From NCBI RefSeq assembly GCF_008017535.1, contig NZ_VRUA01000002.1, positions 1 to 64,000 of the forward strand: a stretch of 64,000 nt of DNA, in the 5' to 3' direction. The notes below the pieces were generated by a model. That model was not told where the DNA came from. It did no database searches and worked only from the letters and a program-made list of their open reading frames with translations. The stretch comes from Ottowia flava. GTDB lineage: Bacteria > Pseudomonadota > Gammaproteobacteria > Burkholderiales > Burkholderiaceae_C. Below, piece after piece: positions 747-64,000 of the stretch. The first letter of the stretch is position 1. Every line of letters begins with the position of its first letter. Position numbers and translations under genes: made by a program.

Positions 747-2663
747 ATGGCCTTGATGACTCTCTTGAACGGGCAACTGGCGTTTGGCCATGTGGCCTTG
801 CTGGACCACGCCGACTTCGCGCTGGAGACGCGCGAACGCGTGGGCCTGATTGGCCGCAACGGCGCTGGCAAGTCCTCCTTGCTGAAGATCCTCGCCGGCA
901 TGGAGCGCCCGGACGACGGCGATCTGCAATTCCAGACCGGCCTGCGCCTGGCCTACGTGGCGCAGGAGCCTGCGTTGGACGCCTTCACCACGGTCAACGA
1001 CGCCGTGGGCGCCGGGCTGAACCACTTGGCCGAGTTGATTGAGGCCTATACCCGCGGCGAAGGCGATCTGGCGGCACTGCAGTCGCAGATTGAAGCGGAA
1101 GACGGCTGGAACTGGCCGCAGCGCGTGGCCGACACCTTGCAGCGCCTCGGCCTGGATGGCACGCGCCACGTGGCCGACCTGTCCGGCGGCACCAAGAAGC
1201 GCGTCGCGCTGGCGCAAGCGCTGGTGCGGCGTCCCGACGTGTTGCTGCTGGACGAGCCGACCAACCACCTGGACCTGGACGCCATCGGCTGGCTGGAACA
1301 ACTGTTGCTGGACTTCCGCGGCAGCGTGATCACCATCACGCATGACCGCGCCTTTCTGGACCGCGTCGCCACGCGCATCGTTGAACTGGACCGCGGCCGC
1401 CTGGTCAGCTACCCCGGCAACTTCAGCGCCTACCTGACGTTAAAGGAAGAGCAGCTCGCGCAGGAGGCCACGATCCAGGCGAAGGCCGACAAACTGCTGG
1501 CGCAGGAAGAAGTGTGGGTGCGCCAAGGGGTGGAAGCGCGCCGCACCCGCGCGCAAGGGCGCATCAACCGCCTGCAGAACTTGCGTGCGGCGCGGGCGGC
1601 CCGGCGCGAAACGGTTGGCCGCGTGCACATGGAAGTCAGTAGTGGCCTGCCCAGCGGCAAGCTGGTGGCCGAGCTGGAGCACGTCACCAAGACCTTTGGC
1701 GAGAAGACGGTGGTGCGCGACTTCAGCGCCACCTTGCTGCGCGGCGACAAGATCGGCCTGCTGGGCCCCAACGGCGCGGGCAAGACCACGCTGCTCAAGC
1801 TGATTCTGGGCGAGCTGGCGCCCGACAGTGGCCGCGTGCGCCAGGGCGCCAACCTGCAGGTCGCGTATTTCGACCAGATGCGCGACGCGCTGGATCTGGA
1901 CGCCACGCTGGAAGACTTCATCAGCCCCGGCAGCGAATGGATCGAAATCGGCAAGAAGCGCCAGCACGTCAAGAGCTACCTGGGCGACTTCCTGTTCAGC
2001 CCGGCGCGCGCGCATTCGCCGGTGCGCAGCCTGTCGGGCGGCGAACGCAACCGCCTGCTGCTGGCGCGCCTGTTCGCGCGCCCGGCCAACGTGCTGGTGC
2101 TGGACGAGCCGACCAACGACCTGGACATCGACACGCTGGAGCTGCTGGAAGAGCTGCTGCAGACCTACGACGGCACCGTCTTCCTGGTCAGCCACGACCG
2201 CACTTTCATGGACAACGTGGTCACCAGCACCATCGCCTGGGAAGGCCCCGGTCAGTGGCGCGAATACGAGGGCGGCGTGACCGACTGGCTCACACAAAGC
2301 GAGCGGGCGCGCGAATGGGCGAGCGGGCGCGCGGGCCTCGCCACTCCGGCTGCGCCGCCCAGCCCGGCGCCCACGGTCCAACTTGAGAATAAAAACGACA
2401 CCCAGCCCTACACAGATCAGCGCGGGCAGCTATCAAAAAAGAAGCTGAGCTACAAAGAACAGCGCGAACTGGACGCCCTGCCCGGCCAGATCGAAGCGCT
2501 GGAGACGGAGCAGTCCGACATTCGCGCTGCCCTCGCCGACGGGCAGCTCTACCAGTCCGACCTAGCGCGCGCCGTGGCGCTGCAGGCGCGCGATGGGGAG
2601 ATCGACGACGCCCTGATGCACGCGCTGGAACGTTGGTCCGAGCTGGAAGCGCGCACGCACTGA
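747..2663 (+). CDS. uup: ABC-F ATPase Uup
   Basis: A soluble 638-residue protein with two ATP-binding cassettes and no membrane segments. The first cassette has Walker A GRNGAGKSS (about 36-44), signature LSGGTKKR (about 144) and Walker B ending DEPTNHLD. The second has GPNGAGKTT (about 342), LSGGERNR (about 429) and DEPTNDLD. A charged helical C-terminal domain (about 575-638) and the overall match to E. coli Uup identify this ABC-F branch, which acts on ribosomes or branched DNA rather than in transport. ATG 747 is chosen because family similarity begins there; ATG 756 is an alternative and no strong Shine-Dalgarno is seen. Residues about 547-565, the linker before the C-terminal domain, are encoded by a copy of the dispersed repeat described in this window. 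Confidence 0.9.
   Translation: MALMTLLNGQLAFGHVALLDHADFALETRERVGLIGRNGAGKSSLLKILAGMERPDDGDLQFQTGLRLAYVAQEPALDAFTTVNDAVGAGLNHLAELIEAYTRGEGDLAALQSQIEAEDGWNWPQRVADTLQRLGLDGTRHVADLSGGTKKRVALAQALVRRPDVLLLDEPTNHLDLDAIGWLEQLLLDFRGSVITITHDRAFLDRVATRIVELDRGRLVSYPGNFSAYLTLKEEQLAQEATIQAKADKLLAQEEVWVRQGVEARRTRAQGRINRLQNLRAARAARRETVGRVHMEVSSGLPSGKLVAELEHVTKTFGEKTVVRDFSATLLRGDKIGLLGPNGAGKTTLLKLILGELAPDSGRVRQGANLQVAYFDQMRDALDLDATLEDFISPGSEWIEIGKKRQHVKSYLGDFLFSPARAHSPVRSLSGGERNRLLLARLFARPANVLVLDEPTNDLDIDTLELLEELLQTYDGTVFLVSHDRTFMDNVVTSTIAWEGPGQWREYEGGVTDWLTQSERAREWASGRAGLATPAAPPSPAPTVQLENKNDTQPYTDQRGQLSKKKLSYKEQRELDALPGQIEALETEQSDIRAALADGQLYQSDLARAVALQARDGEIDDALMHALERWSELEARTH
2385..2440 (-). repeat. Dispersed GCGCAG-core repeat, copy 1 (inside uup)
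   Basis: Reverse orientation, degenerate: AGCCCTACACAGATCAGCGC then GGGCAGCTATCAAAAAA. It stays in frame with uup and encodes the linker between the second cassette and the C-terminal domain. Confidence 0.65.
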
Positions 2664-2750
2664 CCCCCGGTATCGCCCCAGCTTGACGTGACAGGTCAGC
2701 GTGCCAAGATGCGCGTTTTGCAAAACAAACACAGGTGAGGAGAGCGCGTG

Positions 2751-3503
2751 ATGGAGGGCTTGGGCTGGATCGCTCCGCTGTTGCTGGTGGCTTTGTTGGG
2801 TGGCCTGGGTTTTCTGTGGTGGCAGCGCCGCGGCGGCACCGCGGCCGGCGGTGACGCGCCCCTGGGTCGCAACGACCGCTTTGCGCCGGCGGCCGCGCTG
2901 TCGGCGGCCGAGATGGAGCTGCTGGACTACCTGGTGCGCGCCTTCCCGCGCCGCGCCGTGCTGTTCCGCGTCGCACTGTCGAACCTGGTCAGCGTGCGCC
3001 GCGCCGACAACCGCGTGGCCACGCAGCAACGGCTGGCCGAGCACCGCGTGGACTACGTGGTGTGCAACCGCGATGGCCGGCCGGTGTACGCGTTCGAGCT
3101 GGATGCACTGCACGACAACGCCGACGAGGCCGAACTGGACGCGCGCGAAAAGCACCGTGTGCTGAAGTCCGCCGGCATCCGGCTGATTCGCCTCACGCGC
3201 AGCACGCGCGATCTGCCCAACCCCAACGACTTCCGCCGCCACGTGCGCAGCGCCGAACTGACACCCGACGGATCGCCCGCCAACGTGACCGCGCCAGGCG
3301 CTTTGGCGCCAGCGGACGGCGCTGTACCGTTGCCCGCGCACCGCCGCCCGCATCTGTCGGACGACCTGCCTCACGGCCGCGCCGGTGGTTTCCGCGACAC
3401 CCAGCCCATGACGGTGACCGGGCTGATGGATTTGTCACCGGTGGCCGACGAACACGCCGACGCCGCGGCCGACGCCTGGGGCATAGGCCGCGCCAGCAAC
3501 TGA
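2751..3503 (+). CDS. DUF2726 membrane-anchored protein
   Basis: A 250-residue protein with one N-terminal membrane segment (about 5-22), a short glycine- and alanine-rich linker, and a DUF2726 domain (about 50-170). The domain has the alternation of hydrophobic strands and charged helices seen in restriction-endonuclease-like folds, for example the stretch around YVVCNRDGRPVYAFELD. DUF2726 proteins have no settled function; a nuclease-like fold is a family-level suggestion only. The tail (about 180-250) is low-complexity and proline/alanine-rich. ATG 2751 is preferred over GTG 2748 because AGGAGAG lies six bases upstream. It follows uup on the same strand after about 90 bases. Confidence 0.75.
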   Translation: MEGLGWIAPLLLVALLGGLGFLWWQRRGGTAAGGDAPLGRNDRFAPAAALSAAEMELLDYLVRAFPRRAVLFRVALSNLVSVRRADNRVATQQRLAEHRVDYVVCNRDGRPVYAFELDALHDNADEAELDAREKHRVLKSAGIRLIRLTRSTRDLPNPNDFRRHVRSAELTPDGSPANVTAPGALAPADGAVPLPAHRRPHLSDDLPHGRAGGFRDTQPMTVTGLMDLSPVADEHADAAADAWGIGRASN

Positions 3504-3609: not shown

Positions 3610-5052
3610 TCAGCTTTCGTTGGTGCCAGCGGCCTTTTTCACCGGCCGCTGCCAGTGGGCGATGCTCACTGGCTTGCCGCGCGCCACGGTCAGTGCGCCG
3701 GGCGGCGTGCTCTTGGTCAGCGTCGATCCGCCGCCCACCGTGCCGCCCGCACCCAGCGTGATCGGCGCGACCAGCACGCAGTTGCTGCCCACGTGCACGT
3801 CGGCCTCGATCACCGTCCGGTGCTTGTTGGCACCGTCGTAGTTGGCGGTGATGCTGCCGGCGCCGTAGTTCACGCGTTCGCCCACCGTGGCGTCGCCCAG
3901 GTAAGCCAGGTGGTTGGCCTTGGCGCCATCGGCCAGGGTGCTGTTCTTCACTTCGACGAAGTTGCCGATGTGCACCTCGGCGCCCAGCGTGGCGCCCGGG
4001 CGCAGACGGGCAAACGGGCCGACCAGTGCGCCCGCGCCCACGCGCACGCCGTCCTTGGCGCCGTCGATGTGGGTGAAAGGGTGAATCACCGCGCCCGCCG
4101 CGATGTCGGCGTTGGCAATGACGCAGTGCGCGCCGATGCGCACGTCGTCGCCCAGCGCCACCCGGCCTTCGAAGATGCAGCCGACGTCGATCTCCACGTC
4201 CTGCCCACAGACCAGCTCGCCGCGCACGTCAAAGCGCGCCGGGTCGGCCAGGCGCACGCCGTCCGCCATGAAGCGCTGGGCCGTGCGCAGCTGCAGCTCG
4301 CGTTCCAGCTCGGCCAGCTGCTGCGGGCTGTTGACGCCGGCCACTTCCACCGCGTCGCTGATGCGCAGCGCCTGCACCGGCGTGCCATCGGCCACGGCGT
4401 GGCGCACCACGTCGGTCAGGTAAAACTCTTTTTGCGCGTTGTCGTCGTCCAGCTGCGCCAGGTATTTCTTGAGCAGCGCCGTGGGCGCGGCCATCACGCC
4501 GGAATGCCACTCGGTCAGCGCGCGCTGCTCGGGCGTGGCGTCCTTGGCTTCGACGATCGCCAGCACCGGTGCGTCCGCGCCCTGCCCGCCCCGCACGATG
4601 CGGCCGTAGGCGCCGGCGTCCTCGGCCGTGTCCACCGTCAGAAGGGCGATTTGGCGCGCGCCACACAGGTCGATCAGCGCACGCAGCGTATCGGGCTGCA
4701 CCAGCGGTACGTCGCCGTTCAGGATCAGCGTGACGCCATCCTGGGGCAGCAGCGGCACCGCCTGTTGCACCGCGTGACCGGTGCCCAACTGCGGCTCCTG
4801 GCGCACAGGCCGCAGCGAGGGATATGAACCATTTTGGCCTCCAGCCTTACTCCAGTCTGCGCAGGCAGCTTCTACTTCTGTAGCACCATGACCGGTGACG
4901 ACCACCACGTCGGCCGCCCCCAGGGCGGCCGCGCCGTCCAGCACATGGCGCAGCAACGCGCGTCCGGCCAGCGTGTGCAGCACCTTGGGGCGCTTGCTTT
5001 TCATGCGGGTGCCTTTGCCCGCGGCCATGACGACGACGTGGATGGCGCTCAT
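3610..5052 (-). CDS. glmU: Bifunctional GlmU (UDP-GlcNAc pyrophosphorylase / GlcN-1-P acetyltransferase)
   Basis: Acetylates glucosamine-1-phosphate and then joins it to UTP, giving UDP-GlcNAc for peptidoglycan and LPS in the cytosol. The N-terminal nucleotidyltransferase shows MAAGKGTRMKSKRPKVLH (8-25) and GTGHAVQQ (about 90). The C-terminal half is a left-handed beta-helix of hexapeptide repeats with the usual NFVEVKNS and GAGSITANYDG motifs. At 480 residues it is longer than typical GlmU (about 450-460). The excess maps to residues 57-80, where a dispersed-repeat copy encodes an insertion between VTGHGATEVE and VRQEPQLGTGH. The start at 5052 is fixed by the conserved N-terminus. The other enzyme of the pathway, glmS, lies about 50 kb away in this window. 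Confidence 0.95.
   Translation of the reverse strand: MSAIHVVVMAAGKGTRMKSKRPKVLHTLAGRALLRHVLDGAAALGAADVVVVTGHGATEVEAACADWSKAGGQNGSYPSLRPVRQEPQLGTGHAVQQAVPLLPQDGVTLILNGDVPLVQPDTLRALIDLCGARQIALLTVDTAEDAGAYGRIVRGGQGADAPVLAIVEAKDATPEQRALTEWHSGVMAAPTALLKKYLAQLDDDNAQKEFYLTDVVRHAVADGTPVQALRISDAVEVAGVNSPQQLAELERELQLRTAQRFMADGVRLADPARFDVRGELVCGQDVEIDVGCIFEGRVALGDDVRIGAHCVIANADIAAGAVIHPFTHIDGAKDGVRVGAGALVGPFARLRPGATLGAEVHIGNFVEVKNSTLADGAKANHLAYLGDATVGERVNYGAGSITANYDGANKHRTVIEADVHVGSNCVLVAPITLGAGGTVGGGSTLTKSTPPGALTVARGKPVSIAHWQRPVKKAAGTNES
4828..4885 (-). repeat. Dispersed GCGCAG-core repeat, copy 2 (inside glmU)
   Basis: Reverse orientation with a well kept core TCTGCGCAGGCAGCT and the flank TTTTGGCCTCCAGCC. 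On the glmU coding strand it is translated as AACADWSKAGGQNG, in the same frame as the copy inside cca. Confidence 0.85.
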
Positions 5053-5162
5053 ATCTGACGGTGTCCCCTGGGTCTCAATGCGATGCGCTTGATTATCGGA
5101 CGCGCCACGCGGCCATTTCCGCGCGCGCCCGCAACGGCAGCGCCCGGGCGCTAGCATGCGCC

Positions 5163-7120: not shown

Positions 7121-8263
7121 TCAATCCAGCGTCTGGCGGTAGCGCGCGATGGCGAGCACGCTCACCGCCAACACAAAGGCGAGCAATGCGCCCAACTCGG
7201 GCAGCAGCTCGGTCAAGCCTGCGCCCTTGAGCATGATGCCGCGCACGATGCGCAGGAAGTGCGTCAGCGGCAGCACCTCGCCAATCCACTGCGCCCAGCG
7301 CGGCATCCCGCGAAACGGAAACATGAAACCCGACAGCAGCATCGAGGGCAAGAAGAAAAACAGCGTCATCTGCACCGACTGCAACTGGTTGCGTGCCAGG
7401 GTGCTGAAGGTGAAGCCGACGGCCAGATTGGCCAGGATGAACACGCCGATCATCGCGCCCAGCAAGGGGCCGCTGCCCACCATCGGCACGCCAAAGAGCA
7501 GCCAGGCCGCGCCCATAATGACCATAAGCTGCAGGTAACCGATCACCACGTAGGGCAGGATCTTGCCCACCATCACCTCCAGTGGCTGGACGGGCGTGGC
7601 GAGCAGGTTTTCCATGGTGCCGCGCTCGCGCTCGCGCGTCATCGCCAGGCCCGTGAACATGATCATCGTCATGGTCAGGATGGTGCCGATCAGCCCCGGC
7701 ACGATGTTGACGCGCGACAGGCCTTCAGGGTTATAGCGCCGGTGCACCCGCACCTCAAAGGGCGGCGCCTGCGCGTTCAGCGCACGCAGCGGGCCCGTCA
7801 GGTCGCGCCGCAGTGCCTGCGTGGACAGCTGACCCAGCGCCGCCACCGCGTTGGCCGACGCCGATGGGTCGGTCGCGTCGGCCGCCACGTACAGCACGGG
7901 CTTCTGGCCGCGCAGCAGCTGCGCCTCGAACTGCGGCGGCACCACCACGATCAGCTGCACATCGCCGCGCAGCATGGCGTCGTCGGCCTTGGCCTCGCTC
8001 ACCCCGTTCATCACCACGTCGAAGTAGCCGGTGTTCTGCATGGCCGTGGTCAGCGTGCGCACCAGCGGCCCGTGTTCGGCCGCGACGATGGCCGTGGGCA
8101 GCTGCTTCGGGTCGGTGTTGATCGCATAGCCGAACAGCACCAGCTGCATCACCGGGATCATCACCGCCATCGCGAAGGTCAGCCGGTCGCGCAGGATCTG
8201 CTGGAACTCCTTGATGAACACCGCCAGCGCGCGGCGCAGGGACAAGCCGCCGCCCCCGCTCAC
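7121..8263 (-). CDS. ABC-2 type exporter permease
   Basis: A 380-residue inner-membrane permease of the ABC-2 class (YbhR/YbhS-like). It has one N-terminal membrane segment (about 25-45) after a short cytosolic start, a large periplasmic domain (about 50-175), and five C-terminal membrane helices including the motif RERERGTMENLLATPV. It is the last gene of a four-gene operon and its start overlaps the ATPase stop by four bases. Only one permease is present, so the membrane part is presumably a homodimer, unlike the E. coli ybhGFSR system with two permeases. Role inferred: export of hydrophobic or drug-like compounds. Confidence 0.88.
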   Translation of the reverse strand: MSGGGGLSLRRALAVFIKEFQQILRDRLTFAMAVMIPVMQLVLFGYAINTDPKQLPTAIVAAEHGPLVRTLTTAMQNTGYFDVVMNGVSEAKADDAMLRGDVQLIVVVPPQFEAQLLRGQKPVLYVAADATDPSASANAVAALGQLSTQALRRDLTGPLRALNAQAPPFEVRVHRRYNPEGLSRVNIVPGLIGTILTMTMIMFTGLAMTRERERGTMENLLATPVQPLEVMVGKILPYVVIGYLQLMVIMGAAWLLFGVPMVGSGPLLGAMIGVFILANLAVGFTFSTLARNQLQSVQMTLFFFLPSMLLSGFMFPFRGMPRWAQWIGEVLPLTHFLRIVRGIMLKGAGLTELLPELGALLAFVLAVSVLAIARYRQTLD

Positions 8264-9243
8264 GACGGCACCCCGCCTTCGGCAAAGTTGTCCTGCGCCT
8301 GGCCAATCAGGCTGATGAACACGTCTTCCAGGTTGGCGGGCGCGCGCGCCACGTTCAGGCCCTGCGCAGCCAGCGGCGCGACCGCCTGCTCGACCAGCGC
8401 CGCATCGCGCCCCGCGACGTGCAAGCGGTTGCCGAAGGGCGCCACGCTGTCCACGCCGGGCGCCTCCGCCACGCGGGCCTGCTGCTCGGCCGTGATGGCG
8501 CCGGTCACCTCGTACACCGTCAGGTGCGCGCCCTGCACGATCTCGGCCTCGGTGCCGCGCGCCAGCACATGGCCGTAGGCGATGTAGACGAGCTCGTGGC
8601 AGCGCTCGGCCTCGTCCATGTAGTGCGTCGACACCAGCACCGTGATGCCCTCGCTCGCCAGCCGGTGGATCTGGTCCCAGAAGTCGCGCCGCGCTTTCGG
8701 GTCGACACCCGCCGTCGGCTCATCGAGCAGCAGCAGGCGCGGCCGATGGATCAGGCAGGCGGCCAGCGCCAGGCGCTGTTTCCAGCCGCCCGACAGCGCG
8801 CCCGCCAGCTGGTGCTGGCGCTCGCGCAGGCCCAGGTCGTCCAGCGCCTTGTCAACAGCGGCGCGGCGTTCGGGCAGCGCGAACAGGCGCGCGATGAAGT
8901 CGAGGTTCTGGCGAATCGACAGATCGTCGTACAGCCCGAACTTCTGCGTCATGTAACCCACCTGGCGCTTGATCAGCGGCGCCTGCGTGCGGATGTCCAG
9001 GCCCAGGCAGGTGCCCTCGCCCGCATCCGGCGTGAGCAGGCCGCACAGCATGCGGATGGTTGTGGTCTTGCCGCTGCCGTTGGGGCCCAGAAAGCCGCAG
9101 ATCCGGCCAGGCCGCACCTGCAGATCGACGTTGTCCACCACGACGCGCTCGCCATAGCGCTTGGTGAGGCCGCGCACGTCGATGGCCCAGCCGGCCGCGT
9201 CTTCACCGCGGGTGAATGCCGCCTCTTCTGCTACTTTGTTCAT
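8260..9243 (-). CDS. ABC exporter ATPase (YbhF-like, single cassette)
   Basis: A 327-residue cytosolic ATPase with one nucleotide-binding domain: Walker A GPNGSGKTT, Q-loop near YMTQKFGLYDDLS, signature LSGGWKQRLALAACL, and Walker B LLLLDEPTAGVDP. The C-terminal extension (about 240-327) is the DUF4162-like domain usual in ABC-2 ATPases. ATG 9243 is chosen because it puts the start beside the conserved N-terminal strand. An in-frame ATG at 9321 would overlap the hlyD gene and add an unrelated leader. The chosen ATG and the preceding 43-base gap lie inside a dispersed-repeat copy, and no Shine-Dalgarno is visible there. Confidence 0.88.
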   Translation of the reverse strand: MNKVAEEAAFTRGEDAAGWAIDVRGLTKRYGERVVVDNVDLQVRPGRICGFLGPNGSGKTTTIRMLCGLLTPDAGEGTCLGLDIRTQAPLIKRQVGYMTQKFGLYDDLSIRQNLDFIARLFALPERRAAVDKALDDLGLRERQHQLAGALSGGWKQRLALAACLIHRPRLLLLDEPTAGVDPKARRDFWDQIHRLASEGITVLVSTHYMDEAERCHELVYIAYGHVLARGTEAEIVQGAHLTVYEVTGAITAEQQARVAEAPGVDSVAPFGNRLHVAGRDAALVEQAVAPLAAQGLNVARAPANLEDVFISLIGQAQDNFAEGGVPS

Positions 9244-9289
9244 AGCTGGTTGCGCAAGCTCATGGCCGATCAGAGCCCTGTTTTTTTCA
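9236..9289 (+). repeat. Dispersed GCGCAG-core repeat, copy 3 (hlyD/ATPase junction)
   Basis: Forward, divergent copy: CATAGCTGGTTGCGCAAGCT, then GGCCGATCAGAGCCCTG. It fills the junction between two operon genes. On the coding (minus) strand it supplies the TGA stop of the hlyD gene (9287-9289) and the ATG of the ATPase gene (9241-9243). Confidence 0.6.
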
Positions 9290-10312
9290 AGAACCGGGCA
9301 CGGCAGGCAGCAGCCGCACATCCAGTGGCTGGCCAGGCTTCAGGCGCGCGACGTCCTGGGTCTCGGGCAGCGCTTCGACCATGAACACCAGCTTGGCACG
9401 CTGCGCATTCGAATAGATCACCGGCGGTGTGTACTCGGGCTCGGTCGCGATGCGGCTGATGCGCGCGGTGAGCGGCGCCGCACAGCCATCGCAGTTGAGT
9501 TGCACGGCAACGCCGCTCTTCAACTGGCTCAGGGCGGCTTCGGGCACGAAGAAGCGCGCCTTCAGGTGGCCGGGCGGCAGCAGCGACACGACCGGCTGAC
9601 CCGCCGCCACCCACTCGCCTTCGCGAAACAGCGTGTCGGCCACCTGCCCGCTGGCCGGCGCCGCCTGCGCCATCTGGTCCAGGCGCCAGCGCTGCTGGGC
9701 CAGCGCGCCGTCGGCCGCGCGGGCCTGCGCTTCGGCCGCGGCGCGCTCCTGCGCACGCGCGGGCTGGCGCGCCGTGCGCAGGGCGGCTTCCAGCTCGGTC
9801 ACGCGCTGGTCCGCAGCGGCCGCGGCGGTGCGGGCCGCGTCGGCCTCGCTGCGCGAGACGGCGGCCTGAGTCACCAGGGACGCCTTGCGCGCCGAATCGG
9901 TGCGCGCCAACGTGGCCTGCGCGCGCGCCTGCGCCAGCTGCGCCTGCACCTGCGCGACTTCGTCGGGCCGCTTGCCGGTCTGCAGATTGGCCGACTGCGC
10001 GACCGCGGCGTCGCGCTGGGCCTCGGCCGCCTGCAAGGCGTCGCGCTCGGGTGCCTCGTCCAGCGCGAACAGCGGGGCACCCTGCGCCACGTCGTCGCCC
10101 GCGCGCACCGCCAGTCGGGTGAGCCGGCCGGCCACCGGCGCGGCGACGTAGACGTAGTCCCCCTCGGCGTAACCCGACCAGCCATCGCCCACCGGCTCGG
10201 TGCAGGCCGCGAGCACGGCGGTCGCGGCCAGCAGCACGCCGGCCAGGCGCCGCCGGTTGGCGGAGCGACCTGTGCGCGGGCGTGCCTGCGCGGTCCTGTC
10301 ACGTCGTGTCAT
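9287..10312 (-). CDS. HlyD-family membrane-fusion lipoprotein
   Basis: A 341-residue periplasmic adaptor linking an ABC exporter to an outer-membrane channel. The N-terminus is basic followed by AGVLLAATAVLAAC, a lipobox, so the protein is probably lipid-anchored. Then come a biotinyl-lipoyl half (YVYVAAPVAGRLTRLAV), a long alpha-helical hairpin rich in Ala, Gln and Glu (about 75-190), the second lipoyl half and a beta-barrel. YbhG of E. coli is the nearest well known relative by operon context. ATG 10312 is chosen so that the lipobox sits at about residue 35; the gene overlaps the TetR gene by 14 bases, indicating one transcript. Confidence 0.85.
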   Translation of the reverse strand: MTRRDRTAQARPRTGRSANRRRLAGVLLAATAVLAACTEPVGDGWSGYAEGDYVYVAAPVAGRLTRLAVRAGDDVAQGAPLFALDEAPERDALQAAEAQRDAAVAQSANLQTGKRPDEVAQVQAQLAQARAQATLARTDSARKASLVTQAAVSRSEADAARTAAAAADQRVTELEAALRTARQPARAQERAAAEAQARAADGALAQQRWRLDQMAQAAPASGQVADTLFREGEWVAAGQPVVSLLPPGHLKARFFVPEAALSQLKSGVAVQLNCDGCAAPLTARISRIATEPEYTPPVIYSNAQRAKLVFMVEALPETQDVARLKPGQPLDVRLLPAVPGS

Positions 10313-12498: not shown

Positions 12499-12550
12499 CG
12501 CGCGATTATCCCCATTCACCGACCGTGCGGTTGGCTTTTGTTTTTTAAGG

Positions 12551-12599
12551 GTTTTAAGCCTCTAGCCCTACAACCACCAGCGCAGACAGCTATGTTTTT
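12551..12599 (-). repeat. Dispersed GCGCAG-core repeat, copy 4 (3' end of cca)
   Basis: Reverse orientation: AAGCCTCTAGCCCTACAACC then ACCAGCGCAGACAGCTATG. It lies between the TetR gene and cca and overlaps the end of cca. On the coding strand its ATAGC provides the TAG stop of cca (12590-12592). Confidence 0.85.
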
Positions 12600-13885
12600 G
12601 ATGGCAAAGTGCGTTCGGCGTCGGTCGCCATCCAGGCCGCGACCGCTTGCGCACGGGCCTGTGCAACGGCCTTGCCGATCGCCTCGCCGCGCGCACCGCG
12701 GGCCTGCGCTTCGGCCGCGACGGTGGCGGTTTCCACACTCTGCGCCGCCGCCAGCGCGGCCAGCAGGCGCGGGCGCTGCGGGTAGGCGTCGTCTTCCATG
12801 CCCAGCCGTCCGCGCGCGTCGCATTCGCAGGCCAGCAGCGCGTCGGCAAAGCGCGCCGGTTTGCGGAACGCATCGCAGCGCTCCAGCAGGCGCACAGTCG
12901 CGGCGGCGTTCAGATCGCCACTGCGGTGGATGTTGCCGTGTTCGCGCGCGACCACGTCGGCCAGTTCGGTGCATTCGGTCGGCACGCGCAGGCGTTCGCC
13001 CACGGTCTTGAGCAGCTTGGCGCTGCGGATTTCGTGCGCGATGTGGCGCGGCAGCTCATCCACCGGCGTCGTGCCCTTGCCGAGGTCGTGCATCAGGCAG
13101 GCCCAGCGCACCGGCAGGCCCGCACCCAGGCGTGCGGCCATCTGCAGCACCATCATCACGTGCACGCCGGTGTCGACTTCGGGGTGGTATTCGGCGCGCT
13201 GCGGCACGCCCCACAGGCGGTCCAGCTCGGGCAGCACGACGCGCAGCGCGCCGCACGCGCGCAGCACCTCGAACATCCGCGCCGGGTGCGTCTCCATCAG
13301 CCCGCGCGCCAGCTCCTGCCACACGCGCTCGGGCACCAGGTGGTCGGCCTCGCCATCGGCGACCATGTCCTGCATCAGCGCCAGGGTCTCGGGCGCGACG
13401 CTGAAGTCGTGAAAGCGCGCGGCAAAACGCGCCAGCCGCAGGATGCGCACCGGGTCTTCGCGGAAGGCGTCGGTGACGTGGCGCAGCACCTTGGCGCGCA
13501 GGTCGCGCTGGCCGTGGAACGGGTCAATCAGCGCGGGATCAAGATCCAAGCCTTTTTGGCCTGCAGCCGGCACCCAATCTGCGCAGGCAGCTATCGCATT
13601 GATAGTCAAATCGCGCCGCGCCAGATCCTGCTCCAGCGTCACATCGGGGCTGGTGAAGACGTTGAAGCCCTTGTAGCCGCGCCCGCTCTTGCGCTCGGTG
13701 CGCGCCAGCGCGTATTCCTCGTGCGACTCAGGGTGCAGGAACACCGGAAAGTCCTTGCCCACCGGCACGAAGCCCTGCGCCACCATCTCTTCGGGCGTGG
13801 CGCCCACCACCACCCAGTCGTGGTCTTGCACCGCCAGCCCCAGCAACCGGTCGCGCACCGCGCCACCCACCATGTAGATTTGCAT
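12590..13885 (-). CDS. cca: tRNA nucleotidyltransferase / multifunctional CCA protein
   Basis: Adds or repairs the 3' CCA of tRNA using CTP and ATP. The 431-residue protein has the class II nucleotidyltransferase head with [12 protein letters not shown] (5-16) and DHDWVVVG, the RRDLTINA motif (about 86-93), the tRNA-binding helices, and a C-terminal HD domain (HVMMV, then CLMHDLGKG and EHGNIHRS) as in the bifunctional gammaproteobacterial type with phosphohydrolase activity. Residues 93-112, between LTIN and the [11 protein letters not shown] motif, are encoded by a dispersed repeat and make a loop absent from ordinary Cca. A second repeat supplies the last residues and the stop. ATG 13885 is fixed by the conserved N-terminus. 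Confidence 0.93.
13549..13608 (-). repeat. Dispersed GCGCAG-core repeat, copy 5 (inside cca)
   Basis: Reverse orientation, good core AATCTGCGCAGGCAGCTATC with the flank TTTTTGGCCTGCAGCC. On the cca coding strand it reads [16 protein letters not shown], the same frame and nearly the same peptide as the glmU insertion. Confidence 0.85.
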
Positions 13886-13900
13886 GGGGAGAGTGTAGAA

Positions 13901-13920
13901 GGCGGGCGCTGGCGCCCGCC
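13901..13920. terminator. GC-rich hairpin upstream of cca
   Basis: Nine-base arms GGCGGGCGC/GCGCCCGCC separated by TG, between the hydrolase stop and the cca start. There is no T-run, so it may end transcription only weakly or stabilise the RNA end. Confidence 0.4.
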
Positions 13921-13990
13921 CACGACAACAGCCCACACCAGTATCGAGTAGGCCGTGGGCGGCAGGCACCGCCCGGCGATACGCGCACCG

Positions 13991-15817: not shown

Positions 15818-16206
15818 CGGTCGGCTCCTGGCAACACAAGTTGCGCGATTTCGAACACTTTATTTACCCGTCGTTACATCTGAAGGCCGCCCGATGATAG
15901 GCCGCTTGTCGTCCCCTTGGTATCCCTGAAACTGGGTATTTTGAGGCGCACCCCAAGAATCTCTTGCGGACCCAAAATTCAAATGTTTTTGGCTTTCAGC
16001 CCTACAACCACCTGCGCAGACAGCTACCCATTTGGTAGCATGAGAGACCGAAGCGGCTGCGCGGCGCTGCCAACATGGCTGGCCTGCGACGCGCGCCGCG
16101 GCCGGGCTGGCGTACCGGGCGCCTCCTTTTTCCCCGCGGTTTAACCCCCTCCGAGGCGTTACCCCGTTCAAGCCTTCACCTGCTGCTTTTTTTGCGGAAA
16201 CCTGCC
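15818..16206. other. Divergent intergenic region with one repeat
   Basis: This 389-base gap separates the divergent hydrolase and von Willebrand genes and must hold both promoters. It contains dispersed-repeat copy 6 (15977-16040). No convincing -35/-10 pair or small gene was found in the remainder. Confidence 0.5.
15977..16040 (-). repeat. Dispersed GCGCAG-core repeat, copy 6
   Basis: Reverse orientation, close to consensus: GGCTTTCAGCCCTACAACCA then CCTGCGCAGACAGCTACC. It is intergenic, in the divergent promoter region between the hydrolase and von Willebrand genes. Confidence 0.88.
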
Positions 16207-21884: not shown

Positions 21885-21888
21885 CGAC

Positions 21889-28779: not shown

Positions 28780-28786
28780 GCTACCC

Positions 28787-42690: not shown

Positions 42691-42697
42691 TCTCGAT

Positions 42698-48565: not shown

Positions 48566-48673
48566 GGCGGATGGCACAGCGCAGTATATTGAGGCCGCCT
48601 GCGCGGCAGCTGCGGCCCCATAGACCCATGCTGATGCGCCGCGATCACATCGCCGCCTCCAAACACACCACCC

Positions 48674-50420: not shown

Positions 50421-50424
50421 AGGG

Positions 50425-50486
50425 GTTTCAAGCCAAATCAGCGCGCAAACCGCATCCCGCCTGCGCAGGCAGCTTCAAAGGTAATA
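50425..50486 (-). repeat. Dispersed GCGCAG-core repeat, copy 17 (end of the MaoC gene)
   Basis: Reverse: GTTTCAAGCCAAATCAGCGC then GCAAACCGCATCCCGCCTGC and GCAGGCAGCTTCAAAGG. The middle is diverged. It lies between convergent genes and gives the MaoC gene its TGA stop (50475-50477) and last residues. Confidence 0.75.
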
Positions 50487-50927
50487 GCGCGACAGCGGTT
50501 CGGCCACGCACACCGGCTTGTCGGCACCCTCGCGCTCGATGGTGCATTTCCAGGCCGCCTGCTGGCCGCCTTCAATGGCTTCCATGCTCAGCAGCTCGAT
50601 GCGCACGCGTAGGTGGCTGCCGGCCGGCACCGGCGCCATGAAACGCACCTTGTTCAACCCGTAGTTGATGCCCATGCGCACGTCCTTGACGGCGATGGAG
50701 CGGTCAAAAAACCCCGCCAGCAGCGACAGCGTGAGGTAGCCGTGGGCGATGGTCGTGCCGAACGGGCCGGCCTTGGCGCGCTCGGTGTCGACGTGGATCC
50801 ACTGGTGGTCGTCGGTCGCATCGGCAAACTGGTTGATCTGCTGCTGGGTAACGGGCGCCCAGTCGGTCACCACGATTTCCTGGCCCGCGCAGGCGGCCAG
50901 CTCGGCAAGGGTGTCGAAGGTCTTCAT
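50475..50927 (-). CDS. MaoC-family hydratase ((R)-enoyl-CoA hydratase-like)
   Basis: A 150-residue hot-dog-fold protein that probably hydrates enoyl-CoA esters. The catalytic segment is FADATDDHQWIHVDTERAKAGPFGTTIAHGYLTLSL, with Asp and His in the family positions, and INYGLNKVRFMAPVPAGSHLRVRIEL forms the following strands. Such single-domain enzymes feed fatty-acid intermediates to other pathways, or act in degradation. ATG 50927 is chosen over an upstream in-frame ATG because the domain starts there. The stop codon is inside a dispersed repeat. Confidence 0.88.
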   Translation of the reverse strand: MKTFDTLAELAACAGQEIVVTDWAPVTQQQINQFADATDDHQWIHVDTERAKAGPFGTTIAHGYLTLSLLAGFFDRSIAVKDVRMGINYGLNKVRFMAPVPAGSHLRVRIELLSMEAIEGGQQAAWKCTIEREGADKPVCVAEPLSRYYL

Positions 50928-51013
50928 GGGGCGCCAATCTACAGGCACAGCGCATGGATACCCTGTCAGGCAGGCGACTGGCGCTGCATCCATCCACGGA
51001 TGCGTGAAGCAGA

Positions 51014-51066
51014 TGATTTCACCTTGGTACGCGCCCATCCTGCGCAATCAGCTATCATTTTTGAAT
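51014..51066 (-). repeat. Dispersed GCGCAG-core repeat, copy 18 (start of mltB)
   Basis: Reverse: GATTTCACCTTGGTACGCGC then CCATCCTGCGCAATCAGCTA and TCATTTTTGA. It reaches to the ATG of mltB, so the region where a ribosome-binding site would sit is repeat sequence. Confidence 0.65.
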
Positions 51067-52315
51067 GAATCGATCCTCCATGGTCACGCTGGGCCGACGC
51101 GCCGCACCCCTTGCCTTTGCCGCCTGCCTGCTGGGCACGGCCAGCGCGCAGGAAACACCGCCTGCGCTGGACGACGCAGCATTCCGCAGTTGCCTGGCGC
51201 AATTGCAGGGCTCGGCCGCCTTCCGCAACGTCGACCGCGCCACCTTCGCCCAGCACACGCAGAACCTCGCGCCCGACCCGTCGGTGCTGGTGCTGCTGGA
51301 CAGGCAGCCCGAGTTCACGCTGCCGGTGTGGGACTACATCGCCGTGCTGGTCGACGACGAGCGCGTAGCCGACGGCCGCGCCGCCTACGCCAAGTGGCAG
51401 GACACGCTGCGCCGCATCGAGCAGCAGAGCGGCGTGGCGCCCAACATCGTCATGGGCGTGTGGGGCGTGGAAAGCAACTTCGGCCAGATCCTGGGGGGGC
51501 GCCCGCTGGTGCAGTCGCTGGCCACGCTGTCGTGCTTCGGGCGACGCCAGAGCTACTTCCGCGGCGAATTCGCGGCCACGCTGCGCATCCTGCAGGAAGG
51601 CCACATCCCGGCCGAAAAACTGGTCGGCTCCTGGGCCGGCGCGTTCGGGCAGACGCAGTTCATGCCCAGCACCTTTTTCCGCAGCGCGGTCGACTTTGAC
51701 GGCGACGGTCGCCGCGACATCGTCGACAGCGTGCCCGACGCGCTGGCCTCCACCGCCAAGTTCCTGCAAAACGCTGGCTACCGCCGCGGCGAGCCCTGGG
51801 GTTTTGAAGTGCGCCTGCCGGCGGGCATGGACACGTCGGACGCCAGCCGCAAGAACAAGCGCCCGATCGACGCCTGGCGCCGCGCCGGCGTGACCCTGGT
51901 GGACGGCGCGCCGCTGCCCGACAGCCTGCCCAGCGCCGGCCTGCTGATCCCCGCGCGCAACCGCGGCGGCGGCCCGGCCTTCCTGGTCGGGCGCAACTTC
52001 GACACGCTGTACAGCTACAACGCCAGCGAAAACTACGCGCTGGCGATCGCCCAGTTGTCCAACCTGGTGGCCAACCCGAGCGGCAGCGTCGCCTTCGTCA
52101 CGCCCTGGCCGACGGACGACCCCGGCCTGTCGCGCGCGCAAAACCGCGAGCTGCAAACCCTGCTGCTGGCCCGCGGGCACGACATCGGTACCGCCGACGG
52201 CCTGATCGGCGCCAAGACGCGCGAAGCCATCAAGGCCGAGCAGCAGCGCCTGGGCTTCAAGCCCGATGGGCGGGCGGGGCAAAAGCTGCTGGCGGCGCTC
52301 AAGACGGCGCGCTGA
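51065..52315 (+). CDS. mltB: Lytic murein transglycosylase B
   Basis: Cuts peptidoglycan glycan strands in the periplasm. The 416-residue protein has a Sec signal (about 1-28, ending ASA), the MltB-type catalytic domain (about 35-335) with Glu in GVWGVESNFGQ and the following GSWAGAFGQTQFMPSTFF, and a C-terminal peptidoglycan-binding domain 1 (about 350-412; LLLARGHDIGTADGLIGAKTREAIKAEQ). There is no lipobox, so it is soluble. ATG 51065 is the first Met of the signal. Its upstream region is a dispersed repeat, and no Shine-Dalgarno is seen. Confidence 0.92.
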   Translation: MNRSSMVTLGRRAAPLAFAACLLGTASAQETPPALDDAAFRSCLAQLQGSAAFRNVDRATFAQHTQNLAPDPSVLVLLDRQPEFTLPVWDYIAVLVDDERVADGRAAYAKWQDTLRRIEQQSGVAPNIVMGVWGVESNFGQILGGRPLVQSLATLSCFGRRQSYFRGEFAATLRILQEGHIPAEKLVGSWAGAFGQTQFMPSTFFRSAVDFDGDGRRDIVDSVPDALASTAKFLQNAGYRRGEPWGFEVRLPAGMDTSDASRKNKRPIDAWRRAGVTLVDGAPLPDSLPSAGLLIPARNRGGGPAFLVGRNFDTLYSYNASENYALAIAQLSNLVANPSGSVAFVTPWPTDDPGLSRAQNRELQTLLLARGHDIGTADGLIGAKTREAIKAEQQRLGFKPDGRAGQKLLAALKTAR

Positions 52316-52364
52316 CGCGCTGCTTTCCGCGCCCGCCATGACCCCTTGGCAACATGAAATAGTT

Positions 52365-52415
52365 CAAAAACAATAGCTGTCTGCGCTGATGGTTGTAGGG
52401 CCGAAAGCCCAATCC
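52365..52415 (+). repeat. Dispersed GCGCAG-core repeat, copy 19
   Basis: Forward, near consensus but with TGCGCTG in the core: AAAAACAATAGCTGTCTGCG then CTGATGGTTGTAGGGCCG and AAAGCCCAAT. It lies between the convergent mltB and ctlX genes. Confidence 0.83.
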
Positions 52416-52480
52416 CCTGCCTCCGCGAGCCGGCGTCGTCCCCAAGGCGCACTCAAGCAGGCGTCCACGCAGACCAAAGT

Positions 52481-57989: not shown

Positions 57990-58059
57990 GCGGCGGCGTG
58001 CGCGAGCCGCGGCGTGTCTCGCCACGGCGAGCATGGTCAATGACCTGTCACAGAGTTTT

Positions 58060-58116
58060 GAATGAAATTGGCCTGCAGCCCTACAACCATCTGCGCAAGC
58101 AGCTACTGAATCAATA
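58060..58116 (-). repeat. Dispersed GCGCAG-core repeat, copy 20
   Basis: Reverse, near consensus: GAATGAAATTGGCCTGCAGC then CCTACAACCATCTGCGCAAG and CAGCTACTGAATC. It lies between the convergent Lrp and aldolase-like genes. Confidence 0.9.
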
Positions 58117-58181
58117 GCTCACTTGCCATCGCAAGGAGCAGGCGACGCACGCGGATCCCGCGCCTGCAGCGCCCAACGGTT

Positions 58182-59363
58182 TCACCACACGCCGCGCGCC
58201 ATCACCGGCACCACGCTTTCCACGCGGCCGCCGGCCAGGCCGTCGCGCACCACCACCAGGTGGCTGTGCAGGTTGACCGTGGGGTCGCAGTGGCCGGGGA
58301 TCAGCCACACGGTGTCGCCCAAGGCGGGCAGGTTGGACAGCGGGCCGCTCTCGTCCAGCGGGTGCAGCACGCCGTGCTCGTCGCCGCCATTGGCAAAGCG
58401 CAGCGGGGGCTGGCCGGGCAGCGCGTGCACTTCGGGCACGCCGCTGTCGATGGCGTGGGCTTTCAGGCCGGCGTCACACACGGCGTGCCCCGCCGACACG
58501 CTGATGACCTGGGCCTTGACGAAGAGCGCCGGCTCGAACTGCGGCTGCGCCGGGTCGCGGTCGTTGCGCAGGTAGTCGGCGTCCATGAACAAAAAGCTGC
58601 CGGGCTGCACTTCGTTCCAGACGCCGCTGGCCGCTTCGTGTGCGAAGGTGCCGGTGCCCGCACCGGTGACCAGGGGCACGGGCATGTCGGCCGCTTCCAG
58701 CAGGCGGCGCACGTCTTCCACCTTGGCGGCGGCCGCGACGATGGCCGCGTGCCGCTCGCCCACGGTCCGCAGGTGCTGCGCACCGCCGTGGTAGGCGTGC
58801 AGGCCGGCAAAACGCAGGCTGCTGCGCGCGACGACCGCCCGCGCCAGCGTGACGACCTTTTCGTCCGGCGACACGCCGCAGCGGCCCTGGCCGACGTCAA
58901 TCTCGATGTACACATCGACCACCGCCTTGGTCAGCTGCATGGCCTGGGCGAGGCGCTCCACGCCTTCGGCGCTGTCGACGACGATGCCGAGCTGGCCGCC
59001 GCGCACACTGAGTTGGTGCGCCAGCGCGGCCACGCGGCGCAGCTTGTTCACCGCCAGGATTTCGTTGGTGATCAGGATGTCGTTGATGCCGCCGGCGCCC
59101 ATGGCCTCGGCCTCGGCCACGGTCTGCACGCACACGCCAACAGCACCGGCTTGCAATTCGAGCCGAGCCACGGCCGGGCTCTTGTGCATCTTGGCGTGCG
59201 GGCGCAAGCGCAGCCGGTGCTTGGTGGCGAATTCGACCGCCCGCTGCAGGTTGCGGTTGGCGGCGTCCAGATCGACCACCAGCGCGGGCGTGTCGATGGC
59301 GTCGACGCCCTGACCTACCAGCGCACGCAGGTGGTCGGGCAGAGGTTCAGGTTGTGCTTTCAT
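58182..59363 (-). CDS. DSD1/D-threonine aldolase-like PLP enzyme
   Basis: A 393-residue fold-type III PLP enzyme. DTPALVVDLDAANRNLQ leads to RPHAKMHKSPAVARLEL, where the Lys binds PLP, and GINDILITNEIL, YIEIDVGQGRCG and GAGTGTF follow. The C-terminal metal site is PGHCDPTVNLH. The family includes D-threonine aldolase, 3-hydroxy-D-aspartate aldolase and D-serine dehydratase (DSD1); which applies cannot be told. ATG 59363 is chosen over 59375 as the better start. It overlaps the histidine phosphatase gene by 17 bases, so the two are cotranscribed. Confidence 0.85.
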   Translation of the reverse strand: MKAQPEPLPDHLRALVGQGVDAIDTPALVVDLDAANRNLQRAVEFATKHRLRLRPHAKMHKSPAVARLELQAGAVGVCVQTVAEAEAMGAGGINDILITNEILAVNKLRRVAALAHQLSVRGGQLGIVVDSAEGVERLAQAMQLTKAVVDVYIEIDVGQGRCGVSPDEKVVTLARAVVARSSLRFAGLHAYHGGAQHLRTVGERHAAIVAAAAKVEDVRRLLEAADMPVPLVTGAGTGTFAHEAASGVWNEVQPGSFLFMDADYLRNDRDPAQPQFEPALFVKAQVISVSAGHAVCDAGLKAHAIDSGVPEVHALPGQPPLRFANGGDEHGVLHPLDESGPLSNLPALGDTVWLIPGHCDPTVNLHSHLVVVRDGLAGGRVESVVPVMARGVW

Positions 59364-59997
59364 CGAGCGACGCATCCTCCAGGTGACTGACGTCGGCCCA
59401 GCCGACGAGACTGAGGCCCCCCTCGGGGCTCCACAACAAACGGTTGACGGCGGTGTTGGTCAGCTGCCAGGTGCGCGCGTCCTGCAGCCCCAGGCGCGCC
59501 GCAGCGCGGTACAGCACGTCCAGGACGCCACCGTGCGTGACGATGGCGATCAATTTTTCAGTGTTTTCGGCCACCAGCGCTTGAACAGTCTGCGCAACGC
59601 GCTCCTGAAATACGAGCAACGATTCACCTCCCCTGCCCGGCGGCGCCCAGTCGGGCACGCGCCGGCGCCATTGCTCGGCGGCCTCGGGCGCAGCTTGGGT
59701 GACCTGCTCGAAGGTCTGGCCTTGAAAGTCGCCAAAGCAGCGTTCGCGCAGACCGGTGTGCAGCCGCAGCGGCGCGCCGGTAGCGTCGGCCAGCGCCTGG
59801 GCCGTGTCGCGCGCGCGGCTCAGGTCGCTGCTGTAGATCGCGTCCAGCGACTCGCGCCCGGCCAGCGCATGGGCCAGCCGACCGGCCTGCAGGCGGCCAG
59901 TCTCGTTCAGCGGGATATCCAGATGGCCTTGCAGCCGGCCGCCCACGTTCCAGGCGGTTTCGCCGTGGCGGATGGCCAGAATGCGGGTGAGCTGCAT
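59347..59997 (-). CDS. Histidine phosphatase (phosphoglycerate mutase-like)
   Basis: A 216-residue cytosolic phosphatase with the catalytic RHGETAWN (residues 10-17) and the later IVTHGGVLDVLYRAA containing the second active-site His. LQGHLDIPLNETGRLQAGRLA and SDLSRARDTAQALA are further family motifs. Substrate unknown; alpha-ribazole phosphatase (CobC) and sugar phosphatases are alternatives, and no cobalamin genes are near. Upstream of the aldolase-like gene, overlapping it by 17 bases. Confidence 0.88.
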   Translation of the reverse strand: MQLTRILAIRHGETAWNVGGRLQGHLDIPLNETGRLQAGRLAHALAGRESLDAIYSSDLSRARDTAQALADATGAPLRLHTGLRERCFGDFQGQTFEQVTQAAPEAAEQWRRRVPDWAPPGRGGESLLVFQERVAQTVQALVAENTEKLIAIVTHGGVLDVLYRAAARLGLQDARTWQLTNTAVNRLLWSPEGGLSLVGWADVSHLEDASLDESTT

Positions 59998-63062: not shown

Positions 63063-63121
63063 CCCGCGTTATACCGAAAAAACCGCAGCAGCCAAGCCAG
63101 ACAAGGCGCCGCGCTGCGGCC

Positions 63122-64000
63122 CTACCAGCGGCCCGCCTCCATCCGTATCGCCACTTCGCAATCGTCAAAGATTTCCAGCTTGGCGATCTTCACGCGCACG
63201 CCCAGCACGCCGTGCAAGCCCAGCAGGCGCTCGCACAGCTTGCCGATCAGCGATTCAAGCAGGTTGACGTGCTCGTCCGTGCATTCGTCGATGATGATCT
63301 GGCGCACCTTGCGGTAGTCCAGCACGTGGGTGATGTCGTCGTCGCGCGGGCGAAGCGGCTGCGGGCCGAGGTTCAGCTCGGCGTCAACCTGGATCGGCTG
63401 CGGCGCGGTTTTTTCCTCGTCGAGGATGCCCAGGCTGGCGTCAAAGCGCAGGCCGTTCAGCGTCAGCGTCTGGCCGCCGGCGGTGGCGTCGGCAGCCGCG
63501 TTCGCTTCTTTTTCAATAGCTGGCTGCGCAATCGGCTGTAGGGCCGGCGCCGCATTCATCATGGAAAAATCGCGTTCAAAGCGCACCAGGTGCTGGCCGC
63601 CGTCGACCAGCAGCGTGGCGCCGGTGAGCGAGCGGTTGCCCAGCGCAAACACCACCGTGGCGGCCACGTCCTCAGGCGTGGACGAGCGGCCCAACGGGCT
63701 CATGCGGTGCAGCTCGGCAAAGCGCTCGTCGCTCAGCAGATGGCTGGTCAGCGTCAGCCCAGGCGCAACGCCAACCACCCGCACGCGCGGCGCCAGGGCC
63801 TGCGCCAGCAGCGTGGTGGCGCTTTGCAGCGCGGCCTTGCTGAGGGTATAGCTCAAGAAGTCCGGGTTGGGGTTGAACAGCTTCTGGTCCAGCAGGTTGA
63901 CCACGCAGCCGGTGGCGGGCGGCGCATCGCGCGCATCCAGGTGCGCGGCCAGGGCCTGCGCCAGCAGCACGGGTGCGGCGGTGTTGGCGTGCAGATGCGC
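63122..64000 (-). CDS. Fused short-chain dehydrogenase / dihydroneopterin aldolase (partial)
   Basis: The gene runs off the right edge, so its N-terminus is missing. The visible 292 codons hold the C-terminal two thirds of an SDR (catalytic YTLSK, VRVVGVAPGLT, closing VDGGQHLV), a linker of about 35 residues, and a complete FolB-like domain: LRFDASLGILDEEKTAPQPIQVDAELNL, DYRKVRQIIIDECTDEHVNLLESLIGKLCERLL and VKIAKLEIFDDCEVAIRME. FolB makes 6-hydroxymethyl-dihydropterin for folate; the SDR may be a pteridine reductase of the FolM type, which suits the fusion. Part of the linker is encoded by a dispersed repeat. Related genomes probably have two separate genes. Confidence 0.82.
   Translation of the reverse strand, partial: AHLHANTAAPVLLAQALAAHLDARDAPPATGCVVNLLDQKLFNPNPDFLSYTLSKAALQSATTLLAQALAPRVRVVGVAPGLTLTSHLLSDERFAELHRMSPLGRSSTPEDVAATVVFALGNRSLTGATLLVDGGQHLVRFERDFSMMNAAPALQPIAQPAIEKEANAAADATAGGQTLTLNGLRFDASLGILDEEKTAPQPIQVDAELNLGPQPLRPRDDDITHVLDYRKVRQIIIDECTDEHVNLLESLIGKLCERLLGLHGVLGVRVKIAKLEIFDDCEVAIRMEAGRW
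63508..63560 (+). repeat. Dispersed GCGCAG-core repeat, copy 21 (SDR-FolB linker)
   Basis: Forward: TTTTTCAATAGCTGGCTGCG then CAATCGGCTGTAGGGCCGGC. On the coding strand it reads PALQPIAQPAIEKE, the linker joining the two enzyme domains without a stop codon. Confidence 0.8.

Follow-up and report, generated by a model that had tools for sequence, protein, structure and literature searches.

A long dispersed motif with genus-level dialects in Ottowia flava and other Comamonadaceae, tentatively read as a self-DNA uptake or recognition sequence

The stretch of DNA analysed here, hereafter the window, comprises 64,000 nucleotides of Ottowia flava (contig NZ_VRUA01000002.1, positions 1 to 64,000); Ottowia is a genus in the Comamonadaceae. 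Between and within its genes, among them cca, glmU and a SCO1/SenC gene, lies a dispersed repeat (Table 1). A first-pass annotation had described this repeat as a unit of 50–60 bp that occurs at least 21 times in both orientations, about once per 3 kb. Searching the window with the consensus resulted in 13 matches compared to 0.13 expected, and a position-weight-matrix scan detected 22 copies above 14 bits. All 21 places listed earlier carry the motif, in forward and reverse orientation, and one more copy had been missed (59550–59619). The repeat is thus real, but its unit is longer than proposed: since it extends leftwards to a TTGCTAT arm, it spans about 62–68 bp. The palindrome CTGCGCAG, placed at its centre by the annotation, is the spelling of the window genome and not a fixed feature, as congeners mostly have GCGC-n-GCGC.

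The motif is found far beyond the window. A profile search of 20 further 20 kb stretches of the same genome detected 125 copies, and over the combined 464 kb the weight matrix, which was trained on the same copies that it scores, found 152 copies, or one per 3.05 kb, in agreement with the density estimated before. In one version of a Markov-simulated 464 kb nothing scored above 10 bits. Scaled up to the genome of 4.12 Mb, the density extrapolates to about 1,350 copies. A profile search of the whole genome, as proposed with the annotation, returned at least 151 matches, with the best 150 of 4,647 candidates scored, and the chromosome probably holds more than 1,000 copies. All per-genome model counts given below are likewise lower bounds, as 42, 80 or 150 candidates were scored.

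Table 1. Copies of the motif in the window. Scores are those of the position weight matrix; the last column gives the congeners with the motif out of the alignable congeners. ORF, open reading frame.
Position	Strand	Context	Score (bits)	Congeners
2378–2447	-	antisense in ORF with two ABC_tran domains (Pfam; 471–2663, +)	58.6	5/5
4817–4886	-	sense in glmU (3610–5157, -; named from Pfam domains), over native GHGATEVEAACADW	63.0	7/7
9228–9297	+	near start of ABC transporter ORF (8260–9321, -)	49.6	3/3
12538–12607	-	overlaps cca 3' end	70.6	6/6
13539–13608	-	in cca (12590–13969, -; named from Pfam domains), left half over conserved RRDLTIN(A/S)IA	53.3	7/7
15972–16041	-	intergenic	77.8	
21818–21887	+	intergenic	65.6	
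26138–26207	+	upstream of ORF ending at 28705	77.8	1/1 (gap <260 nt)
28778–28847	+	convergent gap, directly behind hairpin and T run (by eye)	73.2	1/3
32495–32564	+	intergenic	55.2	
35624–35693	-	overlaps a gene's 3' end	43.3	
37115–37184	+	near-consensus for the window genome, behind hairpin and T run (by eye)	86.4	
37723–37792	-	N-terminal coding region of SCO1/SenC gene (Pfam), if start 37805 is right	36.0	1/1
41620–41689	+	overlaps a gene's 3' end	52.8	1/1
42625–42694	+	intergenic	43.6	1/1
48286–48355	+	overlaps long ORF (47645–49324, -), not called as a gene there	48.9	
50421–50490	-	overlaps a gene's 3' end	42.6	
51000–51069	-	weakest copy; left arm TTCATTCAAAAATGATAGC	16.8	
52359–52428	+	intergenic	46.1	
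58051–58120	-	near-consensus	86.0	
59550–59619	-	in histidine-phosphatase gene (59347–59997, -)	53.8	
63502–63571	+	antisense in ORF 63122–64000 (-)	60.8	absent in 1/1

With genes called by a home-made hexamer finder, we observed 2.86 copies per kb in convergent gaps; the density is 1.29 in tandem and 0.41 in divergent gaps and only 0.10 within genes. Gaps between genes are thus preferred, but the core lies wholly within predicted genes in 35 of 152 copies (17 sense, 18 antisense). There is no orientation preference in tandem gaps, with 27 copies in the same and 25 in the opposite orientation. The proposed test for replication bias was carried out on the complete chromosome of a congener (G014), using the best 150 copies minus 4 in tandem and an origin and terminus located from 20 GC-skew samples. 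The 146 copies are evenly spread (Kolmogorov–Smirnov p 0.86) and show no strand bias, with 73 of 146 following the leading strand. By eye, the copies within window positions 28753–28847 and 37090–37184 begin in the T run of terminator-like hairpins; such placement has also been described for uptake sequences.

The motif is scarce in a few stretches that are probably foreign. The two poorest of the 20 sampled stretches, picked after the fact, hold 0 and 1 copy, and their gene sets look acquired. The stretch without a copy (L052, G000:C50:1-20000) has a low GC content and contains an IS66 transposase, a plasmid-type pRiA4 ORF3-like gene, RND/CusB efflux genes and a P-type ATPase. The stretch with one copy in 20 kb (L047, G000:C23:100001-120000) contains a cluster of the aromatic-degradation type with a Rieske oxygenase, P450, reductase and aldehyde dehydrogenase. 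Both appear to be acquired, with gene content typed for these two stretches alone. In Polaromonas, two 50 kb plasmid stretches have no copy in 100 kb, as scored without learning the dialects of those strains, and chromosomal loci totalling 112 kb have 14 copies besides the cca site. One BLAST query returned one plasmid record and only weak matches to Gordonia phages.

In congeners, for which profiles were learned per genome with strand competition, the unit reads approximately TTGCTAT-n2-AATT-n2-ATAGCTGCnnGCGC-(dialect middle)-GCGCTGGAGGCC-n-ATTT-n7-AAA, and the dialect middle of the window genome is GCGCAGgtGGTTGTAGGGC. The total relative entropy is 55.2 bits for the 152 window-genome copies and 54.4 bits for 102 copies from eight congeners. 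Two homopolymer-like A/T tracts avoid the step TpA. In the window genome, TpA is present in 7 of 100 right tracts that consist only of A and T, compared to 38.8 expected from the column frequencies, and in 11 of 69 such left tracts, compared to 30.4 expected; in congeners, it is present in 2 of 67 right and 12 of 65 left tracts. Outside the copies, TpA occurs in 41% of the non-coding and 27% of the coding all-A/T 4-mers, and the scarcity relative to the non-coding background is significant for the right (p 9e-14) and the left tract (p 2e-5). This avoidance points to recognition of double-stranded DNA shape.

We also looked for signs of RNA structure. The middle of the congener unit is able to form a hairpin (GCGCTTG-n5-CAAGCGC), and 46 copies of other genera show a small excess of pairing in the inner dyad (190 vs 175.2). 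However, the inner dyad is broken in the consensus of the window genome, where Watson–Crick counts are not above independence (inner arms 502 vs 511.6, left arms 518 vs 545.4), and in congeners the counts for the left dyad and the inner dyad lie at or close to independence. Furthermore, we found no preference for G-U pairs (inner 117 vs 111.0), and at gathering thresholds the window has no match in Rfam.

The middle of the motif varies among genera and among several species. At column 40, for instance, G is present in 67% of the 152 window-genome copies and C in 88% of the 102 copies of the eight congeners, and among orthologous pairs a G in the window is matched by a C in the congener in 28 of 34. 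If this shift is genome-wide, hundreds of sites would have changed in parallel on the lineage of the window genome; this would speak for a recogniser that acts in trans, or for a templated process.

The comparison of orthologous sites, also proposed with the annotation, included 12 of the 22 window sites, which had alignable flanks and a gap below 260 nt in at least one congener; for many intergenic copies flanks could not be projected because the gaps no longer align. The motif was present in 34 of 37 site-by-genome comparisons, always in the same orientation and in the dialect of the respective congener, and 11 of the 12 sites have it in one congener or more. In the left part, orthologous copies have a similarity of 0.765 compared to 0.558 for random copies; the middle is less conserved (0.496 vs 0.381). 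No pair of a filled and an empty site was found among the sites compared. The ortholog of the copy at 59550–59619 in one congener (G003) aligns without gaps inside the motif region and has only a weak match of 26 bits. The left arm of the weakest window copy has a near-identical counterpart in copies of three congeners (G025, G003 and G023; L126:16822, L132:16851 and L134:7209). Other short repeats, with GGACGCAGAGGACGC and AACAGCCG units, occupy the gaps orthologous to window positions 58051 and 26138 in L132 and L134, and a GCGTTGAGC tandem array occupies the gap orthologous to 28778 in L136.

Linkage between positions was estimated from the mutual information among 147 copies, with 5 of the 152 copies below 25 bits set aside. 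Linkage is strong between neighbouring positions and still elevated at 4–9 bp (z 10.5). It becomes marginal at 10–20 bp (z 2.3), and beyond 20 bp it falls to the level of the shuffles (z 0.1). The two most similar copies share 77% identity over 70 columns, compared to 72% in column shuffles. Full-length subfamilies would show linkage across the unit whereas an old star-like burst would not, and linkage alone is therefore not decisive. In addition, one window copy has local matches in the whole genome of up to 90% over 49 bp, which counts against the argument that copies do not arise by insertion.

The copies within coding sequence reveal how the motif is accommodated at its sites. In the conserved cca segment, LTIN(A/S)IA is spelled ACT ATC AAT nnn ATA GCT in motif-rich genomes and with ordinary codons in motif-poor genomes. 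We surveyed 28 Ottowia-type genomes with cca. This spelling is present in 14 of 14 genomes with at least 140 model matches and in none of nine genomes with at most three matches, one of which (G012) has ATA without ACT; three genomes with 13–29 matches have ACT-n-AAT-nnn-ATA. Across genus and family, the spelling agrees with the motif count in 46 of 52 genomes with a clear count and disagrees in 6 (4 intermediates of 56 were left out). Among 80 named cca loci, of which 7 scoring 0–38 bits were set aside, the codon ATA, which accounts for about 6% in those reading frames, occurs in 48 of 48 sites above 38 bits and in 0 of 25 sites below 0 bits. The latter split is partly circular because the site score includes the tested codons; the comparisons with copy number are free of this circularity.

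At glmU, motif-poor congeners lack the motif and use ordinary codons for a GHGAAEVEAFC segment of the same kind, some at equal protein length. A glmU segment length of 28 residues is seen in 10 rows with the motif and in 3 without it, so that the two length ranges overlap. The motif at glmU thus needs no insertion. Since relatives show the same segment at equal length, we dropped for glmU the idea that copies within reading frames are translated inserts of the type of Rickettsia palindromic elements (RPE). For cca, added length may have played a partial role. A 12-residue loop is present in 23 cca loci with the motif and in 8 without, and the average loop is longer where the motif is present (p 0.003, named loci). 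Within the genus, the loop has 17–21 residues in the 13 motif-rich genomes measured (19–21 in 12 of 13) and 8–26 residues in motif-less genomes. The motif seems to be kept in place, even by means of unusual codons within essential genes, rather than copied around.

When one genome was searched for each of 24 other families in the order, the first model gave two marginal matches in total, both of them single. With the family model, 23 of 120 genomes of the family have at least 42 matches, whereas in 79 no match reaches E 1e-6. Model R2, built with 25 of 114 candidate sequences set aside, misses distant dialects, and local stretches revealed other dialects in genomes that the family model nearly missed. 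Carriers of the cca site include Acidovorax facilis, A. temperans, Diaphorobacter nitroreducens, Comamonas testosteroni and C. granuli as well as records of Polaromonas, Simplicispira, Giesbergeria and Rhodoferax; named loci without the site belong to Variovorax, Ramlibacter, Paracidovorax, Diaphorobacter caeni and Giesbergeria anulus. Two congeners have copies within tandem units, namely 4.8 units of 142 bp in G014 (L121:13675-14360) and 2.9 units of 167 bp in G016 (L118:1648-2135). Contig C1 of G014 also contains 20 matches to the Y1-transposase domain, several with identical scores; the other 28 genomes have 0–5.

Among the three functions suggested in the first-pass annotation (nonautonomous mobile element, protein-binding or uptake signal, RNA element), the evidence thus favours the second. 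More specifically, we propose that the motif may be a self-DNA uptake or recognition motif for natural transformation, to which we assign a probability of about 0.45. We propose this since the motif agrees with published descriptions of uptake sequences in its dialects, its conservation at orthologous sites, its permissive placement and the composition of its tracts. The DNA uptake sequence (DUS) and the uptake signal sequence (USS) have dialects, lie at permissive sites of the core genome and are absent from recently acquired genes, and AT-rich regions adjoin the USS core, according to the accessible text of PMC3630211, PMC2397512 and PMC12616744. The motif would be a dispersed and asymmetric recognition sequence for double-stranded DNA of about 65 bp, composed of a left dyad (TTGCTAT..ATAGC), a GC-rich dialect middle and flanking A/T tracts. 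Selection or biased recombination, and not transposition, would create copies where they stand, mostly at permissive spots, and keep them there. A putative protein receptor would prefer DNA that bears the motif; once imported, such DNA would recombine and thereby spread and preserve matching alleles, which amounts to a possible molecular drive. A change in receptor specificity would then move the dialect at many sites together.

Several observations weigh against this proposal. The main objection is the length of the motif, which is 2–5 times that of known uptake motifs, and its information content of about 55 bits is far above what uptake bias should need. No receptor was identified among the genes looked at, and a literature search for uptake sequences together with Comamonadaceae or Burkholderiales found nothing on point. 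The codon survey has its exceptions: G008 (116 matches), G005 (50) and G122 and G098 (42 each) do not have the cca spelling, whereas G114 and G101 have it despite one model match each. When corrected for the tree, the cca association has four supported pairs and a median p of 0.5, a test that is underpowered. The third, far-right A/T tract shows no clear avoidance of TpA (10 of 36, p 0.13). Lastly, a ComEC-type competence gene is present in the window genome, but ComEC does not track the motif, as it was detected in 26 of 29 genus genomes, including six of the eight without motif matches. As ComEC is found in genomes with and without the motif, it is uninformative as a discriminator, and the receptor, not the channel, would therefore carry specificity.

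The strongest rival is a binding site of an intracellular protein that organises or bends the chromosome, such as a nucleoid protein, a topoisomerase or a condensin loader, with weak selection per site and dialects that follow the protein. This rival, which we consider possible though rather doubtful, draws on the same in-place, dialect and tract evidence, and the even spread along the G014 chromosome agrees with it. The long footprint with dyads and A/T tracts would suit a wrapping or multimeric protein. However, it needs selection at the extrapolated 1,350 or so sites, including rare synonymous codons, and a parallel change of dialect at most of them. In addition, 8 of the 29 Ottowia-type genomes have no match at E 1e-6, so that the factor would be dispensable unless these genomes have unseen dialects.

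It is unlikely that the motif descends from an old non-autonomous mobile element whose copies spread in an ancestor and have since been homogenised through gene conversion. Candidates would be a miniature inverted-repeat transposable element (MITE), a repetitive extragenic palindrome (REP) or an RPE-like element. REP with the transposase RAYT and RPE are dispersed palindromic units, RPE partly inside reading frames, and both are insertions. A genome with REP and RAYT encodes the Y1-transposase partner; RPE-like inserts add residues compared to gene copies without the element, and a MITE or other transposable element inserts with a junction and, as a rule, a target duplication. Such an origin would explain the many copies in both orientations, the tandem arrays in two congeners, the locally alike copies, the strong short-range linkage and the tendency to longer cca loops. 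Y1-transposase domains are present in 21 of 29 genomes, with one match in the window genome. However, their presence does not follow the number of motif copies, with no match in the motif-rich genome G017 (99% complete), and we set REP/RAYT aside as improbable for this reason. Furthermore, the left halves of the copies in cca and glmU are native protein sequence, no length was added at glmU, linkage does not reach across the unit, and orthologous sites keep the motif while its dialect changes. On these grounds we rejected a mobile element as the principal explanation. A transcribed RNA element (structured 3' untranslated region, attenuator, terminator or small RNA), which would suit the hairpin-capable congener middle and the enrichment in convergent gaps, is very improbable, and we rejected it as there are no covarying pairs, no strand-specific wobble, no orientation preference relative to genes and no Rfam match.

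The proposed uptake or recognition motif resembles the known systems in some respects and differs in others. Like the DUS of Neisseriaceae, it has hundreds to thousands of copies per genome (more than 1,000 for DUS), clade-specific dialects, apparently permissive core-genome sites and conserved positions (PMC3630211 and PMC2397512, accessible text). The DUS, however, is no longer than about 13 nt, contains a CTG core and has ComP as its receptor, whereas the present motif covers about 65 bp, carries about 55 bits and has a receptor that is putative. The USS of Pasteurellaceae likewise has dialects and a core with AT-rich regions, which are helically spaced and thought to help melting and kinking; uptake motifs range from about 13 nt in DUS to up to 32 nt in USS (PMC12616744, accessible text). 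Whereas the USS combines a 9-nt core with AT regions downstream only, the A/T tracts of the present motif flank a long GC-rich middle. The core of 9–13 nt and the limit of about 32 nt that characterise DUS and USS thus do not apply here, as informative columns span about 65 bp.

Part of the motif family was already published in 2017 as an unexplained motif pair. Table 7 of PMC5217627 lists two separate unexplained pairs, GCTTAT(N)5AAGCG in Acidovorax ebreus (114 copies) and ATAGCT(N)22CAAAAG in Polaromonas naphthalenivorans (125 copies). They have intergenic and convergent placement like the present motif, and in the accessible text each is given singly, with no mention of a common family or of dialects. 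The first very probably represents the present motif in one of its spellings, as it lies within motif copies in 10 of the 12 examined loci that hold it (three of the ten are one G003 site); the second, a candidate member, has no exact match in the 317 examined loci. In our literature search, with most subscription papers outside reach, no paper came up in which the motif is described as a single family. The Betaproteobacterial repeat element (BRE) is also dispersed in Comamonadaceae and Bordetella, with some copies in reading frames; by its published description (PMC3110155, accessible text) it differs in its length of 75–91 bp in Bordetella, its GC content of 69%, its frequent tandem arrangement and its at most 29 copies per genome.

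According to the accessible text of PMC12616744, discrimination between self and foreign DNA by specific motifs at uptake is known from Neisseriaceae and Pasteurellaceae alone. The Comamonadaceae might thus have a third and independently evolved system of self-DNA recognition. Its motif would be the longest genome-wide recognition motif known, with A/T tracts on both sides and dialects at the genus level; it would have altered the choice of synonymous codons in essential genes, and single genera would have gained or lost it repeatedly. We put this forward tentatively, as a proposition with somewhat less than even odds. If it is true, a large family that is common in the environment would, with its long and dialect-bearing motif, provide a third case and a natural experiment: comparing genomes with the motif, without it or with another dialect could reveal the receptor, and related genomes could test whether the motif spreads by molecular drive or by a benefit to the cell. 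If instead the motif serves chromosome organisation, it would represent an unusually dense and long site-specific chromosome code. With either explanation, the force that holds rare synonymous codons in cca across genera affects how conserved and neutral positions are to be read there.

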